A DNA stretch of 31,753 nt, taken from positions 1 through 31,753 of the IMG/VR virus record IMGVR_UViG_3300029309_000191. One strand, given 5' to 3'. This stretch comes from a virus. Made by a program: the position numbers and the translations under genes. Shown here piece after piece: positions 6,389 to 13,628 of the stretch (its first letter is position 1; every line of letters begins with the position of its first letter). The notes under the pieces are model-generated. The model saw only the letters and a program-made list of their open reading frames with translations. It ran no database searches and was not told the origin of the DNA.

Positions 6389-7296
6389 TGCCCGTACCCG
6401 TAATTTTAAACCGAACGTCTAACCCTGCATCACCTACGGTGCATACGAAGACGATTTGGACCGGAGGAACGGGTAACGGTCTTTTTACGGCTAATAAGAA
6501 CTGGACCAGTGCCGTCCCGGTTCAAGGCGGTATAGCGTACTTTGCAGATTCTTCTAAGTCTCTAACCGGTAATACTGATCAGCAAACTCTAAACCTAGAT
6601 CAGCTTCGGGTTAGTTCTTCCTTTAACGGAAGCCTCGGTACAAGTTCGAATCCTCTTAAGATTAACTCTACAAAGGTCGTGCTAGATGCTCGGTCTAGCG
6701 ATATCCATTTACAAGGGTCGTTTAAAGAAATAATCGTAGTCGGAGCCGAAGGTATTACAAAAGTCGGCGGTATCTCTACTAATAGGATAGAAAAGCTGAT
6801 TCTTGCTCGGTCCGCCCAGAACGTAGAACTTACTGCAGGTAAATGCGAAGAGGTAATATTAGGAGGTACTTCGTCGCTTACCGTAGATTCAGGAGTAACC
6901 GGAGACAACACGCTTACTTTGTTTGCGGGTATTAATAACGGACGGGTCTCTAGAGACTCTACCTTAAGCTCTGCTTCTAACTTTATAGACCTCCAAGTAA
7001 CCGGTAGAGCAGATAGTAACGCTCGTGTCGGAAATCTTACTCTTCTTGCGGGTTCTCTATTCGAGGGTAAATCCACAACCGGAGTGCAAACCCGGCTCAC
7101 CATGTACGGAGGCAAGTTAAGAGTTATGGCGGCTAACTCTAGCGACGGCTTTGCAGTCCTTAACTCCGACCTTTACGGCGGTATTCTTTCGGATAGAGGT
7201 AGCAATAGGGACTTGACCTTTACCAATAACGCGAATATTTTAGGCTCGGTCGTTCTCGAATTAGAGAGCGGATCGACTGTAGGAGGTCTTACCTAA
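6388..7296 (+). CDS. Beta-helix-like fibre protein, WTGG family (paralog of 25560-26396)
   Basis: A 302-residue protein. After a short leader it reads TIWTGGTGNGLFTANKNW, then a beta-strand-rich body with regular short strands and turns (Leu/Val every other residue, many Asn/Gly/Thr/Ser). This suggests a parallel beta-helix. The WTGG...NW opening and overall plan match the protein encoded at 25560-26396, so the two are probable paralogs at opposite ends of the structural region. The ATG overlaps the previous stop as TAATG, and the same arrangement joins it to the ParB-like gene. It is likely a fibre or spike; an enzymatic active site is not evident. Confidence 0.85.
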   Translation: MPVPVILNRTSNPASPTVHTKTIWTGGTGNGLFTANKNWTSAVPVQGGIAYFADSSKSLTGNTDQQTLNLDQLRVSSSFNGSLGTSSNPLKINSTKVVLDARSSDIHLQGSFKEIIVVGAEGITKVGGISTNRIEKLILARSAQNVELTAGKCEEVILGGTSSLTVDSGVTGDNTLTLFAGINNGRVSRDSTLSSASNFIDLQVTGRADSNARVGNLTLLAGSLFEGKSTTGVQTRLTMYGGKLRVMAANSSDGFAVLNSDLYGGILSDRGSNRDLTFTNNANILGSVVLELESGSTVGGLT

Positions 7297-7796
7297 TGAA
7301 CGTACAAGATGCGCTTAAGCCGCTCTTAGTAGATATCGACTCTTTGCACGCGGACCCGTCTAACGCTCGTAAGCATGACGATAGGAATATTCAAGCTATC
7401 GCCGCGAGTCTCGTAAGGTTCGGGCAAACTAAACCGGTCGTCCTTCATAAGAACGGTAAGACGATTATCGCAGGTAACGGAACCTGGGAAGCGGCGAAAA
7501 GCCTACGCTGGAAAAAGATAGCGGCGGTAACTACGGACCTTAAAGAGTCGGACGCAGTCGCTTACGGTATCGCGGACAATAAGACCGCAGAACTCGCGGA
7601 ATGGGACGACGACGTTCTACGAAGTCTCTTGGAACCGATGGCAGACGACTTAGCTTTGTCTACCGGGTTTAACGACGAAGAGCTTAAAGAGCTACTAGAG
7701 ATAGACTTTAGCCCATCGTCTAGTGAGGAGCAAAGTAAGCTCGACGAGGAGAAGACTACAAAATGCCCGGAATGCGGCTATGAGTGGAAGTCCTAA
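7296..7796 (+). CDS. ParB-like (ParB/Srx fold) protein with C-terminal zinc ribbon
   Basis: A 166-residue protein. Residues about 11-31 (DIDSLHADPSNARKHDDRNI) and then GQTKPVVLHK and TIIAGNGTWEAAKSL match the N-terminal ParB/sulfiredoxin fold, known as a CTP-binding or nuclease-like domain. The last residues contain C157-x-x-C160 (CPECGYEW), half of a zinc knuckle. There is no partition partner (no ParA) and no helix-turn-helix of a chromosomal ParB. In phages this domain often sits beside DNA modification genes. Here it overlaps the Mom-like gene by 17 bases and precedes terminase, so it probably helps modification or its coupling to packaging. It is read as TAATG with the fibre gene. Confidence 0.9.
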   Translation: MNVQDALKPLLVDIDSLHADPSNARKHDDRNIQAIAASLVRFGQTKPVVLHKNGKTIIAGNGTWEAAKSLRWKKIAAVTTDLKESDAVAYGIADNKTAELAEWDDDVLRSLLEPMADDLALSTGFNDEELKELLEIDFSPSSSEEQSKLDEEKTTKCPECGYEWKS

Positions 7797-8469
7797 ACTT
7801 TACTTGGATTGGTGTTCGGCTAAAGCCGCTTCTTACGCTTGTACCCGGTGGCATTACTCCGGAGTTCTACCAGCGTTTAAGACTGCTAAGGTCGGAGTTT
7901 GGGAAGCCGACGAATATAGAGGTTGCATCGTATTTACGAACCCCATGCCTCCTGCACGAAAGCGGTTTAAATGCTCGAACGGTCAAATAACCGAACTCGC
8001 TAGAGTCGCCTTACGTTCGCATTATCATCCGGTCTCTAAGATGATCCGTATAGCCTTAAGGATTCTAAAGAAAGAGAACCCAGGTCTTAAGGTATGCGTC
8101 TCCTACGCCGACTCCGGGCAGGGTCATCACGGCGGTATTTATCAAGCCGCAGGTTTTCGCTACTTCGGAGCTGGAAAAGGAACTAAGGAGTATTTCTATA
8201 AAGGTCGGTGGGTTCACGCTCGCTCTATCGGTCAAGCCATAGATACCGGAAAGCTAACCGAAGATGGATGGAACCTACCTAATAGACCTTCCGGTTTGAA
8301 GCATTGTTACGCTTTAACGCTGGACAAACGTGGCTCCTACTCTATACCCTTAGAGGATAAGCCTTACCCGAAACGACGCGTATTAAGTGACACGAGTGAC
8401 ACGAAAGCCTCCCAGGCTTTAAAGACCGGTGCAACTCCGAGTAGTACGCTCCAGAAAGGTAGAGCCTAA
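7780..8469 (+). CDS. Mom-like DNA adenine modification enzyme
   Basis: The frame extends to 7723, but the ATG at 7780 gives 229 residues, close to the roughly 240 of phage Mu Mom. HYSG at 25-28 with LP following, the strand GCIVFTNP, ELARVAL with R75, and YADSGQGHHGGIYQAAGF at 109-126 match the Mom family in order and spacing. The spacings of Y26, R75, D111 and Y121 resemble the residues I recall as essential in Mu Mom. Mom has a GNAT-like fold and converts adenine to an N6-carbamoylmethyl form, blocking many restriction enzymes. In Mu the gene is very late and tightly controlled. Here it lies between fibre and terminase genes and is coupled to a ParB-like gene, so it is probably co-expressed with late genes just before packaging. 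The C-terminal 50 residues are basic and Ser/Thr-rich. Confidence 0.9.
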   Translation: MSGSPKLYLDWCSAKAASYACTRWHYSGVLPAFKTAKVGVWEADEYRGCIVFTNPMPPARKRFKCSNGQITELARVALRSHYHPVSKMIRIALRILKKENPGLKVCVSYADSGQGHHGGIYQAAGFRYFGAGKGTKEYFYKGRWVHARSIGQAIDTGKLTEDGWNLPNRPSGLKHCYALTLDKRGSYSIPLEDKPYPKRRVLSDTSDTKASQALKTGATPSSTLQKGRA

Positions 8470-8801
8470 TGCCCGCCCCAGTAGACCTAGACGTAGAGCA
8501 GCTTAAAAAGCTAGCGGCGATGCAATGCACCTTCGAGGAGATAGCGGCTTGGTTCGGTATCTCTAGAGCGACTCTCTATAACCGAACGGAGTACCGAGAG
8601 TTAATCGAGCAGGAGAGACTTAAGGCTTTGGCTTCTCTTCGGAGAAATATGTTCCAAAGCGCATTATCTGGTGACCGGCAGATGATGGTATGGCTCTCTA
8701 AGCAGTACCTAGGGATGCGGGAGAAGACCGAGACTAGCGGCGACGGCAACGTGGAGCTAGTTATGAAAATGGTAGAAGCGAAGCCGCCTGATGAAGCTTG
8801 A
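8469..8801 (+). CDS. terS: Terminase small subunit
   Basis: A 110-residue protein. Residues 6-36 contain a helix-turn-helix (QLKKLAAMQCTFEEIAAWFG then ISRATLYNR). The tail LRRNMFQSALSGDRQMMVWL followed by KQYLGM is the typical signature of small terminase subunits of this class. It would recognise the packaging site and load the large subunit. It starts by TAATG overlap with the Mom-like gene and overlaps the large subunit by 11 bases. Position and motif make the call firm even though sequence identity in this family is usually low. Confidence 0.9.
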   Translation: MPAPVDLDVEQLKKLAAMQCTFEEIAAWFGISRATLYNRTEYRELIEQERLKALASLRRNMFQSALSGDRQMMVWLSKQYLGMREKTETSGDGNVELVMKMVEAKPPDEA

Positions 8802-10092
8802 ACGGGAGATACAACTTTTACCGCCGCAGCTACGTTTCATTAAGGCTAACGAGCGGGAGGTTATCTACTCCGGAGCGTTCGGTGCAGGTAAGACGCGAGC
8901 CTTATGCTTGAAGCTCGCTAGCCGGGTTATTGGCTTCCCAGGGTCTAGAGAGGGTCTAGCTCGTAAGCACCTAGTTAGCCTTAAATCGACGACTCTAAGA
9001 ACGCTTCTAGAGTCAGACGGGAACCTTCCGCCGGTTTTACCTCTAGGAAGCTATACGCACAATAAGAGCGAGCGGACTATTAAGGTTCATGGCGGCGGTA
9101 CTATTTACTACTTCGGCTTAGGCGATGCCGAGGACTATCAAAAAATCGGGTCTCTTAACCTTTCAGGATGCGCGGTAGACGAAGCCGTAGAGCTAACCGA
9201 GGCGGACTGGACAATGCTTAGAGGTCGCGTACGTCTAAAGCTAGACGGTCAATCTATGCAGCTATACGGAGCCTGTAACCCAGGCGCGCCGTCGCATCAC
9301 CTAGCTAGACGATTCGGGTTAGCTGGAGGATATAAACCGGCGGATAACTGCAAGGCTATTCAGACAAGAAGCCCGGATAACTTCTTTCTTCCCGAAGAGT
9401 ACGTTAAAGACCTTATGAGTCTTACCGGCGTAGCTTTCGAGCGATACGTTGAAGGAAAGTGGAGAGGCGGAGAGGGTCTCGTTTTCGACCGCTTCGACCG
9501 AAGCCTTCACGTACGCGAACGGGAAGAAGAATGGAAGCGAATCGTCGTAGGTCAAGACGAAGGTTATACGAATCCTGCTGCTCTAGTCGTCCTAGGTGAA
9601 GACTCCGACGGTCGTTTGCATATCTTGGAGGAATGGTATAGAACGAACCAGCTAGAGGAGGACGTTATTAAGGCTGCTAAAGATATAGCCTCTAGATACC
9701 GAGTCGAGAGCTTCGTAGTAGACCCGTCCGCCGCCAAGCTCCGAGCCTCTATGCACAGCAGTGACCTACCCGTAACTCCGGCGGATAACGAGGTTTTCCC
9801 AGGAATCCAGAAGGTGCAGCAGAGGCTACCTAGAGCGGGAGACGGGAAGCCTAGACTAACCGTTGATCCGCGATGCGAGAACCTTATACGAGAGTTTGAG
9901 TCTTACGAATGGCTCGGAGGTTCAAGCGGGTTTAAAGATATACCGAAGAAGGAGAACGACCACGCCTTAGATGCTCTGCGGTATGCGGTGGTCTACTTCG
10001 ACGGCAGTAGCATAGAACCGAGAGTACGAGTCGCAGGGACGGAAGAAACGGGAACTCGCTTTGAAGAAGAACGAATGTGGAGAACTTTCTAA
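8791..10092 (+). CDS. terL: Terminase large subunit (ATPase-nuclease)
   Basis: 433 residues, normal for the family. Walker A is GAFGAGKT at 28-35. Walker B with the catalytic Glu is CAVDEA with D130-E131. The RNase H-like nuclease has D256 (GQDEGYTNP), D311 (VVDPSAAK) and D390-H391...D394 (NDHALDAL). It powers DNA translocation into the prohead and cuts the concatemer. The ATG lies inside the small subunit gene, so expression is coupled. The portal gene follows by TAATG. All key residues are present, so the enzyme should be active. Confidence 0.97.
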   Translation: MKLEREIQLLPPQLRFIKANEREVIYSGAFGAGKTRALCLKLASRVIGFPGSREGLARKHLVSLKSTTLRTLLESDGNLPPVLPLGSYTHNKSERTIKVHGGGTIYYFGLGDAEDYQKIGSLNLSGCAVDEAVELTEADWTMLRGRVRLKLDGQSMQLYGACNPGAPSHHLARRFGLAGGYKPADNCKAIQTRSPDNFFLPEEYVKDLMSLTGVAFERYVEGKWRGGEGLVFDRFDRSLHVREREEEWKRIVVGQDEGYTNPAALVVLGEDSDGRLHILEEWYRTNQLEEDVIKAAKDIASRYRVESFVVDPSAAKLRASMHSSDLPVTPADNEVFPGIQKVQQRLPRAGDGKPRLTVDPRCENLIREFESYEWLGGSSGFKDIPKKENDHALDALRYAVVYFDGSSIEPRVRVAGTEETGTRFEEERMWRTF

Positions 10093-13000
10093 TGCTCGAT
10101 AGACTCCGGCAGGCTGTTGGACTTAAAGCGAAACGCGACCGTTTAGAGTACGTCCGCTCTACGATCAAACCGGAAGCGACCTACGGAAGCGGTAGACAAC
10201 GAGAGCATCAAGCCGCGATGCTTAAGCTTCTTAGCGGGTACGTCTATTCCGCCGTAATGATGAACGCTCGGAGTATCGCAGCCCAACCGATCCGCCTTTA
10301 CGCGTCCTTAGAGACGAGAGCTAATAAGCATTGGGCTACTAAGTCGGTTTCTAAATCTACGACTCGTTACCTAAAAGGCGACTCCCAGCAGAGACCCGCT
10401 AAGTCTGCAATGCTCGGCTCTAATACCGGCGGCGACTTAGTAGAGATTTACGACCACCCTATTTTAGACCTTCTTAATCGCGTCTCTCCGTTTATGGACG
10501 GCTATAACTTTGCGGTCCTTCGTAAGACTTTCCTCCAGGTCTCCGGTAACGAATATCTGCACCCGATCATCGGTCCGCTCGGCTACCCGGTCGAGCTTTG
10601 GGTTATGCCGTCGCAGCACGTAAAGATTCTTCCGACTCGTGACGAGCGGATGATTGAAGGCTACGAGTACGGCATTCCTCCGAATCAGTCTAAGTTCTTG
10701 CCCGATGAGGTCTTGCATAACCTCGTCCCTTCTCCCGACGATCCTCTATACGGGTCCGGCTGGGTATCCGCCGCCGCTCCTGCAGCCGGTCTTCTTCAGT
10801 CTATGGATTCTTACGAGAAGCACCTTTTCGAGAATCAGGCTAGACCGGACTGGGGTATTTTCATTAAGGAGCATCTCAACGAGACCCAATGGAATCGTAT
10901 GGTCTCTTATCTCGACGCAAACCTTAGAGGTAACAGGAACTCCGGTAGACCCTACATTTTCGAAGGCGGATCGGACGCTAGACCTCTCCAGTTCTCTCCG
11001 CGTGACCTTTCATTTTCCGACGGAGAAGAGCGGAAGGTAGAGACTATTGCAGCCGTCTCCGGTGTCCCGGTATCTCTTCTTAAAGCGAACGACCCTAACC
11101 TAGCTTCTGCTCAGGTCGGCTTTGCGTCCTATATGCGAGATACTATCCACCCGTACCTCGTAGCGGACGCGGAGTTTTTAAACCAGCAGCTCCTTCCGCT
11201 CTTCGGTTCTCTCGGAGAGGGACTCTTTCTCGCATACGACAATCCGGTGCAGGAGGACGACGAGCGTATTTCTCGCGTCCTTATGTCCGAGGTATCTACC
11301 GGCGTTCGCTCTATTAACGAGGCTAGAGCCGAGCTTGGTCTAGACCCGAACGAGCAAGGCGACGAGCTGCGGGTTAACGGCGTTCCTCTAGACGTTATCG
11401 GGCAACCTCCAGCTATCCCAGCCTTTGGAGCGTTGTCCGTTCCTGGGGAGCAAGCCGAAAAAGCCGTAGATAGCCCAGGAGAAAAGGCGGAACGGTCGGA
11501 GGTCCGAGTAGGTTCTTTTGTCGAATGGAGGACCGAAAAGGGAAAGTATCTAGGCAAAATCCGCCGGTTTAAGGACTCCGGGACCGAACCCGGAACCATC
11601 GGAGAAGGAGAAGCTACGGAGTCGGACCCTATCGTTTTCGTGCAGGTCTACGTAAGGAACGAGGACGGTAGCTTTACGCCTTCCGACCGAGAAGCTCCGG
11701 TTAAGCTCTCTCGTCTTACAGCTTCCAAAGAGCCGGAGAACGTGCAAGAAAAAGCCGTAAGCGAGTCCGTAAGAGAGTCTCTTAAGAAGAAAGCCGACGA
11801 GCATAACGAAGAAGTCGGAGACGCTAAAAGCAAAAGAACGAACGTAAGAACCCTCGTAGCGGTCTATGAGAGAGGTATTGGAGCTTACCAGAGCCAGCCG
11901 GGTTCGGTCCGACCCCAGGTAAGCTCGGCTGAGCAGTGGGCTATGGCACGCGTTAATGGCTTTCTCCACGCTCTAAAGACCGGGAAGTTTAAGCGTAAGC
12001 CTTTTGATACGGACCTTTTACCGGAGAGCCACCCTCTCTCTAGTAAGGGAGAGAAAGCAGAAAAGTCCGAGCTTCCTTATTATAAAGACTATTTTACGAC
12101 GTTAGAAGAGGCGGAGGAGAGAGCTAAAGAGCTAGGCTGCGAAGGCGTTCATACGGCTGCAGGAGACGCGTACGGTTACGACGGTCTTATTTATATGCCC
12201 TGCGACTCCCATAGTTCTTACGAGGAAACCGTAGAAGCTCAACAGAAAAAATACGAGGACATAGACTTTACGCCTCCAAAGGACGTTCAAGAAGAAGCTA
12301 AACGCGGTTTAGAGTGGCGTAAAGAGCATAACCGAGGAGGTACGGAGGTCGGAGTAGCTAGAGCTAGAGACCTTAGTAACGGCGTTAGCGTATCTCCGGA
12401 CACGATTCGACGTATGACGAGCTACTTTGCACGGCACGAAGTCGATAAAGAAGGCGAAGGATTTAGCCCAGGAGAAGAAGGCTACCCGTCCGCCGGTCGT
12501 ATCGCCTGGGCCTTATGGGGAGGAGATGCGGGAAACCGTTGGTCTAGCTCTATCCGAGACCGTATGGACGCGGAAGACGATAAAGGCGAGAAGGTTACGC
12601 GGAGAGACGACGAGAGCTTAAAAGAATGCGTAGCTCGCGGAATGGAGACGCTACTAGGTGAAGGCTACGACCGAGACCAAGCCGTAGCTATCGCCTATAG
12701 CCAATGCGAGCTTAAGAGCGTAAAGACCGCCTTTCTAACCGGTATGGAGCCGGAAATGAAGAAGAAGGCTTTTAGCTCGATGGACGGCGAAGTATGGCCC
12801 GAACGGTCCTACGAAGCTCGTAAAGCTATCGAGGACGTAGAGGACTTCGCGGACTATGACGCGGTAGACGCGGACGAGGACGTAAGGGAGGGAGAAGCCC
12901 GAAACCCGGCCCAAAGAATCCAAAAGAACCTTGTAAAGGTCTTCCGGTCTCAGGTTAACCAAGTCGTCCGGGCTTTACGCGGAGAGAAGAGCTTTGGACC

Positions 13001-13628
13001 CGGAGACCTCCTTAACCTGCTTAGCTCGCTTTCTGGAGCCGAATCGGACTACCTCTCGGCGGTTCTTGGCCCTATGGCCTCCGCGACTGCTGCAGGCGGT
13101 AAGTTCGGTCTCGATGAGGTCGGCGTTTCTCTTAGCTTCGACGAGACTAACCCCAGGGTCGCAGAGTTCGCTAACAGCTACGCCCAGAGCTTTGCTAAGG
13201 AAGCCTCTAGAGCTTCGCTCCTCCGGGTCCGTTCGGTTATTTCTAGAGGTCTAGAGCAGGGTATTGGGGCGCAGGCTATCGCTAAGGAGCTAGAGACGGA
13301 CTACGCGTTTAGCCCACAGAGAGCGACGGTCGTAGCTCGTACCGAATCGGCTAGAGCTTTCGTCGAAGGCGAGCGGCTTGGTTGGTCGGAGTCCGGCGTA
13401 GTTCGCGGTAAGCAATGGAATCTAGCTCCTGGAGCTTGTCCCTTTTGCGAGCAAACCGCAATCCGTGGAACGTCGAAGGTCTTTAATTTAGACGAGCCTT
13501 TTTACGCGAACGGCGAGACCATTACCGCAGGAGGTAAGACGTATACGGTTAAATATGGCGACGTTCAAGGCGCGCCGCTTCATCCTAATTGCCGTTGTGA
13601 TATTACGGCGGTTCTAATTGAGGAATAA
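10092..13628 (+). CDS. Portal protein fused to MuF-type minor head protein, with inserted modules
   Basis: A GTG at 10077 is in frame, but the ATG at 10092 overlaps the terminase stop (TAATG) and has a GGAGAA site, giving 1178 residues. Residues about 1-440 are an HK97-type portal (RSIAAQPIRLYA, VSGVPVSLL, LGLDPNEQG). About 470-540 is a small beta domain (VEWRTEKGKYLGKIRRF). About 565-640 is a helical module (ERGIGAYQ, GSVRP, ARVNGFLHAL). About 660-715 and 728-875 are further modules (GLEWRKEHNRGG, SYFARHEVDK, YPSAGRIAWALWGGDAGNRW). From about 940 comes a MuF-like domain ending in C1116-P-F-C1119 and HPNC1167-R-C1169, a likely zinc site. Separate portal and MuF genes are usual; here one chain would place the minor head protein at the portal vertex. 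Confidence 0.92.
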   Translation: MLDRLRQAVGLKAKRDRLEYVRSTIKPEATYGSGRQREHQAAMLKLLSGYVYSAVMMNARSIAAQPIRLYASLETRANKHWATKSVSKSTTRYLKGDSQQRPAKSAMLGSNTGGDLVEIYDHPILDLLNRVSPFMDGYNFAVLRKTFLQVSGNEYLHPIIGPLGYPVELWVMPSQHVKILPTRDERMIEGYEYGIPPNQSKFLPDEVLHNLVPSPDDPLYGSGWVSAAAPAAGLLQSMDSYEKHLFENQARPDWGIFIKEHLNETQWNRMVSYLDANLRGNRNSGRPYIFEGGSDARPLQFSPRDLSFSDGEERKVETIAAVSGVPVSLLKANDPNLASAQVGFASYMRDTIHPYLVADAEFLNQQLLPLFGSLGEGLFLAYDNPVQEDDERISRVLMSEVSTGVRSINEARAELGLDPNEQGDELRVNGVPLDVIGQPPAIPAFGALSVPGEQAEKAVDSPGEKAERSEVRVGSFVEWRTEKGKYLGKIRRFKDSGTEPGTIGEGEATESDPIVFVQVYVRNEDGSFTPSDREAPVKLSRLTASKEPENVQEKAVSESVRESLKKKADEHNEEVGDAKSKRTNVRTLVAVYERGIGAYQSQPGSVRPQVSSAEQWAMARVNGFLHALKTGKFKRKPFDTDLLPESHPLSSKGEKAEKSELPYYKDYFTTLEEAEERAKELGCEGVHTAAGDAYGYDGLIYMPCDSHSSYEETVEAQQKKYEDIDFTPPKDVQEEAKRGLEWRKEHNRGGTEVGVARARDLSNGVSVSPDTIRRMTSYFARHEVDKEGEGFSPGEEGYPSAGRIAWALWGGDAGNRWSSSIRDRMDAEDDKGEKVTRRDDESLKECVARGMETLLGEGYDRDQAVAIAYSQCELKSVKTAFLTGMEPEMKKKAFSSMDGEVWPERSYEARKAIEDVEDFADYDAVDADEDVREGEARNPAQRIQKNLVKVFRSQVNQVVRALRGEKSFGPGDLLNLLSSLSGAESDYLSAVLGPMASATAAGGKFGLDEVGVSLSFDETNPRVAEFANSYAQSFAKEASRASLLRVRSVISRGLEQGIGAQAIAKELETDYAFSPQRATVVARTESARAFVEGERLGWSESGVVRGKQWNLAPGACPFCEQTAIRGTSKVFNLDEPFYANGETITAGGKTYTVKYGDVQGAPLHPNCRCDITAVLIEE

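Follow-up and report, generated by a model that had tools for sequence, protein, structure and literature searches.

The Mom-family gene in the stretch of virus DNA analysed here (the window, a 31.7-kb record of 31,753 nt) carries a non-canonical tRNA-Gly gene embedded in its 3′ end, in the part encoding the C-terminal tail of Mom, where the original prediction for this locus had overlooked it. Such a stripped-down glycine tRNA recurs in about 100 divergent phage Mom lineages. We read the locus as a probable three-part DNA-modification cassette, composed of a ParB-like protein, a Mom enzyme of the GNAT fold and the tRNA-Gly gene, in which the tRNA would be charged, would avoid translation and would serve as the donor for Mom; we put the probability of this reading at roughly two in three. 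With slightly less assurance, Mom enzymes may be aminoacyl-tRNA-dependent DNA modifiers that draw their glycine from Gly-tRNA, with a dedicated, minimized and translation-avoiding tRNA-Gly encoded within or beside mom across a large branch of phages. This would amount to a class of DNA base modification fed by a charged tRNA, and the elements would then form a new class of minimal tRNA that was missed here by ARAGORN and Rfam.

The features of the region are listed in Table 1. The ParB-like protein matches the ParB_N domain (PF02195, E value 8.5e-8) and PHROG 620, and its C-terminus contains the predicted CxxC, a feature shared by only half of the ParBs that are linked to Mom (48 of 95 clusters). 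Its reading frame shares 17 nt (7780–7796) with that of Mom, as had been described, and the pair lies directly upstream of the terminase genes, the TerS start and the Mom stop overlapping by 1 nt. A Pfam search of the 166-residue protein gave, besides ParB_N, weak zinc-ribbon matches and no central, parS-binding HTH domain; the GERR CTP-binding motif is absent from this protein and from every Mom-adjacent ParB ORF searched. A promoter and terminator scan of positions 6900–10200 gave counts that were not above those of shuffled sequence. Further downstream, an ORF of 1183 residues (10077–13628) fuses portal, DUF3721/DUF5824 and Mu F-like head domains.

Table 1. Coordinates of genes and RNA features in the window.
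Feature	Position	Strand	Remarks
ParB_N-domain protein	7296–7796	+	166 residues, C-terminal CPECGYEWKS
Mom-family DNA modification protein	7780–8469	+	229 residues, ATG at 7780
tRNA-Gly-like RNA element including CCA	8378–8453	+	inside 3′ end of Mom ORF; GCGTATT AAGTGACACGAGTGACACG AAAGC CTCCCAG GCTTT AAAG ACCGG TGCAACT CCGAGT AGTACGC T CCA
Acceptor stem, 5′ strand, GCGTATT (G1-C2-G3)	8378–8384	+	pairs with 8443–8449
Anticodon arm, AAAGC-CTCCCAG-GCTTT	8404–8420	+	anticodon CCC (Gly) at 8411–8413
T arm, ACCGG-TGCAACT-CCGAGT	8425–8442	+	conserved bulged A at 8440
Acceptor stem, 3′ strand, AGTACGC, with U73 (8450) and encoded CCA (8451–8453)	8443–8453	+	
GAAAGG, Shine–Dalgarno-like for TerS	8454–8459	+	by inspection only; directly 3′ of the CCA of the element
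TerS-like (terminase small subunit)	8469–8801	+	weak matches to PHROG 309/606
TerL (terminase large subunit)	8791–10092	+	profile- and PHROG-based

The window Mom matches Pfam family PF25680 over profile positions 2–202 of 202 (E value 6.9e-34; 117.7 bits, cut-off 27.1) and, with an E value of 9e-42, PHROG 1384 ('Mom-like DNA modification protein'). The expected Tyr, Arg, Asp and Tyr residues are borne out: Tyr26, Arg75, Asp111 and Tyr121 align with Tyr59, Arg111, Asp149 and Tyr159 of Mu Mom (annotated 241-residue numbering). Ser86, which is nearly invariant, aligns with the serine that is mutated in the Mu Mom structure 8bv8, the title of which reads 'inactive mutant S124A'. An AlphaFold2 model (pLDDT 93.9) has this structure as its best PDB match, with a Z score of 18.8 over 188 residues, and we assign the gene on these similarities to the Mom family proper. 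The GNAT-fold domain extends over approximately residues 1–198 (to position 8373) and the remaining ∼31 residues are the translated RNA element. By inspection of the alignment, the loop that binds the CoA pyrophosphate in GNATs (R/Q-x-x-G-x-G/A) is absent from the corresponding Mom region (RVALRSHYHPVSKMIRIAL), which may be counted in favour of Gly-tRNA as the donor. The fold neighbours may be counted against it: among the Foldseek/VIA matches listed, those besides Mu Mom are mostly CoA-dependent acetyltransferases. Aminoacyl-tRNA transferases of the Fem or LFT type are not among the matches listed, an observation that weighs neither way. In Salinibacter phage B2_17 (L005, 5001–5620) the Mom frame appears to be shifted, with the tail motif NPYPKPED outside the annotated CDS frame, apparently through either a sequencing error or inactivation.

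Annotated tRNA-Gly genes stand beside Mom in Salinibacter phage B2_17 and in phage Appa, and the tail of the window Mom was therefore inspected. The element begins immediately after the end of the Mom domain (KPYPKR) and comprises a 7-bp acceptor stem, anticodon CCC, the discriminator base U73, an encoded CCA and a T stem with a bulged A and an A49-U pair. Its D region (AAGTGACACGAGTGACACG) has no GG, U33 is kept and position 55 is G instead of T. Bacterial glycyl-tRNA synthetase (GlyRS) recognizes the identity set U73, G1-C72, C2-G71, G3-C70, C35 and C36, all of which are present. ARAGORN reported no tRNA in the window, the Rfam model RF00005 gave no match to the L012 locus at E ≤ 5 and so missed the window element, and across the window and the collected loci the two programs missed nearly all of the elements. 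Folded alone, the window RNA has a minimum free energy of −22.7 kcal/mol versus −13.9 kcal/mol for the cloverleaf, which is thus not the minimum; unmodified tRNAs are not unusual in this respect.

The family to which the element belongs was delineated by a structural scan that imposed no anticodon rule. Cloverleafs found at the 3′ ends of Mom genes had a glycine anticodon in 47 of 49 cases, versus 12 of 303 elsewhere; after dereplication, the NCC anticodon was present in 49 of 55 at Mom 3′ ends versus 9 of 246 elsewhere in the same loci (Fisher p ≈ 3e-40). Two covariance models were then used, R1 (a D region of 19 nt; 20 sequences) and R2 (no D arm; eight sequences, none of the window type). 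R1 gave a single match per source, at mom, in 87 of 92 sources and nothing else in 631 kb, and R2, which describes the D-arm-less form only, detected the window element with an E value of 1.3e-6. Since divergent T loops escaped the structural scanner, which also parsed some anticodons wrongly, the tallies below combine the covariance models with two elements that were found by the scanner only (L009 and L199).

RNAalifold predicts the cloverleaf and its bulge unprompted and adds a 32–38 pair that narrows the anticodon loop. Changes on both sides of the pair were found in 17 of 21 pairs, including those of the D stem, which the scan did not demand. True partners pair in 97% of cases versus 34–45% for controls with slid partners, a percentage that is partly by construction because the acceptor, anticodon and T stems were chosen by the scan; the D stem, the anticodon identity, U73 and the bulged base lie outside that selection. 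Among 125 unique elements, U73, G1-C72 and C2-G71 are each found in all 125, G3-C70 in 123, the bulged A in 115 and an encoded CCA in 105, and a glycine anticodon in at least 112 (by automatic parsing, which misread a few anticodons). U33 is retained in only 42 and T54-T55 in only 18, and the D arm is missing in about half. The family thus keeps the identity for bacterial GlyRS, while the features needed for translation (U33, D-loop GG, T54-T55) are lost in most members. Constraint at the protein level was considered as the cause of this conservation and rejected: the codon position of the identity nucleotides varies, that of C35 being mostly the third, so that the encoded protein does not account for them.

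Linkage to Mom was examined in both directions. From IMG/VR, GTDB genomes and annotated phages, 267 Mom loci were collected and grouped into 140 clusters at 80% identity; as the loci were chosen by a best-80 rule among matches to window-like Moms, the counts favour the ParB-linked branch. The element stands next to Mom in 95 of the 140 clusters, and is present in 87 of the 95 clusters with ParB versus eight of the 45 without. On the Mom tree its presence requires 15 changes, versus at least 32 (mean 38) for shuffled labels. Conversely, an IMG/VR search by the RNA pattern alone returned 200 sites, 187 of them away from a contig edge; 173 of the 187 abut the 3′ end of a Mom gene and a further five have Mom within 1.6 kb. 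Eight phage records searched in full contained one element each, except for Pan3, where a divergent element was detected by the scanner only. The control searches of Mu, phiEf11, Salmonella SP-031 and five Mom-less ParB loci gave no element, and there are further Mom phages that also lack it.

The element overlaps the Mom ORF in 151 of 160 cases. The median distance from its end to the Mom stop is 18 nt, the stop lying inside the element in 13 of the 151 and after it in the others. Where, as in most cases, the element ends before the Mom stop, a transcript from which the tRNA is released could presumably not also yield complete Mom, which suggests that each transcript may give rise either to Mom or to its tRNA. 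Other placements of the same Mom partner are seen in L467 and L397, in the Mu-like branch of Mom, where a tRNA-Gly-like element lies directly upstream of mom, and in phage Appa, where an ordinary tRNA-Gly(CCC) lies 33 nt downstream of mom on the opposite strand. In G004 (locus L187), one of the eight records searched in full, the element match is ∼4 kb from Mom.

Several further loci deserve description in their own right. Elements resembling tRNA-Gly(UCC) with no Mom nearby occur in L335 (7305–7381), between a ParB–C5 cytosine methyltransferase pair and terminase, and in L305 (781–857). In L317 (0–1302, reverse-strand numbering) the order is a different GNAT-like ORF, ParB, a full tRNA-Gly-like element and a TerS-like ORF, and this GNAT might represent another enzyme family that draws on such a tRNA. 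L470, L472, L438 and L456 have no more than the 3′ half (GGCGGTTCRACTCCGACCTCAACGCTCCA), located after ParB–methyltransferase or ParB–glycosyltransferase genes and just before TerS, as if it were the scar of a swapped ParB–Mom cassette. L267 has two equal-scoring elements ∼700 nt apart in one locus (1312–1381 and 2023–2092). In phiEf11 (L270), ARAGORN finds a tRNA-Asn(GTT) at 39646–39718 that scores 70 bits in Rfam and is missing from the annotation of the record.

The original prediction regarded ParB–Mom as an unusual insertion before terminase, possibly coupled to packaging, and proposed a search for the same gene order in other phages. The order does recur: the end of ParB adjoins the start of Mom in 95 of the 140 clusters; 89 of these could be assessed for TerL, which in 67 lies no more than 3.5 kb downstream. 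The absence of such a neighbourhood, named beforehand as grounds for refutation, is therefore not what is seen. The pair is accordingly not an oddity of this genome but a recurring cassette, already annotated as such in phiEf11. The coupling to packaging finds no such support. Arthrobacter Marthavirus and Microbacterium phage Appa have ParB–Mom with no terminase nearby, and elsewhere Mom is replaced in the slot between ParB and terminase by DNA methyltransferases, a glycosyltransferase or unknown genes. Because other modifier genes occupy this slot, ParB seems to partner DNA modifiers of phages in general, and it may target Mom. The tRNA-Gly-like element is the more telling partner of Mom.

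A modification module of ParB and Mom that is linked to packaging, with ParB connecting Mom to terminase, is thus very unlikely as the explanation of the locus: the conserved order (67 of 89 clusters) speaks for it, but ParB–Mom also occurs away from terminase, the slot holds other modifiers as in a late-operon hotspot, and the tRNA is left unexplained. Such a module could nevertheless coexist with a Gly-tRNA donor. An alternative that does address the RNA sees in the element not an amino-acid donor but a tRNA mimic acting in cis within the mom mRNA, where, bound by GlyRS or processed by RNase P, it would control Mom synthesis or set mom apart from terS. The position of the element fits, since processing would remove the stop codon from the overlapping Mom ORF (151 of 160 cases, a median of 18 nt before the stop) and, in the window, the Shine–Dalgarno-like GAAAGG for TerS follows the CCA. 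We nevertheless consider this unlikely, as the element is also found upstream of Mom, just beyond the stop codon of mom or on the other strand, as well as where mom does not precede terminase, and as the full GlyRS identity set with an encoded CCA (105 of 125) exceeds what a processing site would need.

Phages often carry tRNAs, and the anticodons of the elements do read glycine codons, so that an ordinary phage tRNA aiding translation of these codons might be envisaged. It is a highly improbable account of elements that mostly lack U33 and T54-T55 (retained in 42 and 18 of 125, respectively), often lack the D arm, share a conserved T-stem bulge, serve glycine only and are bound to one gene, and of which the window example escapes both ARAGORN and Rfam. 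Barely credible is the idea that the element derives from a host tRNA-Gly gene and marks the cassette boundary as an attachment site or a relic of recombination. The 3′ halves without Mom at the ParB–methyltransferase or ParB–glycosyltransferase/TerS junctions of the four loci described above would be expected of such a remnant, but the elements at Mom are of full length, with compensatory changes in the acceptor, D, anticodon and T stems that a fossil would not keep; this covariation and the conserved identity elements already contradict it. A codon-usage tRNA and an attachment site were hence rejected as main explanations, the former on the loss of features and the latter on stem covariation.

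The reading that we favour, in which charged tRNA-Gly is the donor for Mom, would proceed as follows. Host GlyRS would charge the element RNA, in which the acceptor stem, U73 and C35-C36 are kept. The charged RNA would be expected to bind EF-Tu and the ribosome poorly, since U33, the GG of the D loop, often the D arm and the normal T arm are mostly lost, and its glycine would thus be reserved for Mom. Mom would then place the glycyl unit on adenine N6 in the DNA of the phage, with ParB as its partner on the DNA side. The Mu Mom product, N6-carbamoylmethyl-adenine, corresponds to adenine plus C2H3NO, which is exactly one glycyl residue. From the N6-glycyl intermediate it could arise by a rearrangement of the Smiles type, in which the free amine attacks C6 and the original C6–N6 bond is lost; glycyl transfer followed by this internal rearrangement would need no other cofactor. 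As the element is absent from Mu, phiEf11 and others, Mom must manage there with another source, for which host Gly-tRNA is the candidate. These absences and the elements without Mom (L335, L317, L470, L472, L438 and L456) are counted against a Gly-tRNA donor.

To our knowledge, the donor for the Mom modification has been in question ever since the modified base was first reported, and a glycine tRNA gene conserved at the end of mom in many phage lineages suggests a specific answer that can be tested directly. A full-text literature search, the scope of which excluded preprints and most subscription journals, so that a prior report is possible, found no paper tying Mom to a tRNA-Gly donor; within the same scope, no precedent for aminoacyl-tRNA-dependent DNA modification was found. 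The ParB–Mom pair alone is of a known kind, and what appears to be new is the arrangement of a tRNA within mom together with its proposed use. If the proposal is correct, the donor for momylation would be identified, DNA would join protein, cell wall and lipids among the things modified by charged tRNAs, and phages would be protecting their genomes with glycine withdrawn from the translation of the host. The element also serves as a sequence marker for Mom cassettes.

Among known systems, Mu Mom (8bv8, PF25680) shares with the window Mom its family, the GNAT-type fold, the Tyr/Arg/Asp/Tyr set and the serine mutated in 8bv8, but in Mu mom follows com at the end of the genome, with neither ParB nor a tRNA-like element. 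Enterococcus phage phiEf11 resembles the window in having an annotated ParB-like gene that overlaps a Mom-like gene (PHIEF11_0062/0063); the pair lies two genes from the end of the record, which opens with the terminase genes, and, unlike in the window, no tRNA-Gly-like element was found. Blf4, Javan422 and phi jlb1 share the slot ParB–[modifier]–(TerS)–TerL, which in these phages is occupied by a methyltransferase or glycosyltransferase and not by Mom, with no element found in the loci. For the RNA itself, the closest parallel is in Staphylococcus aureus, where non-proteinogenic tRNA-Gly species with an altered T stem feed FemXAB, a non-ribosomal glycyl transferase of cell-wall synthesis, have lost G18-G19 and are thought to avoid EF-Tu (PMC4052509). 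The window element is similar in its loss of the D-loop GG and its altered T stem (PMC4052509), and by analogy these RNAs may be regarded as a precedent for tRNA-Gly diverted from translation in a structurally similar way. The S. aureus tRNAs are encoded on the host chromosome and serve cell-wall peptides, whereas the window element lies within a phage DNA-modification gene, and the phage elements, with no D arm and a bulged T stem, depart further from the tRNA norm.
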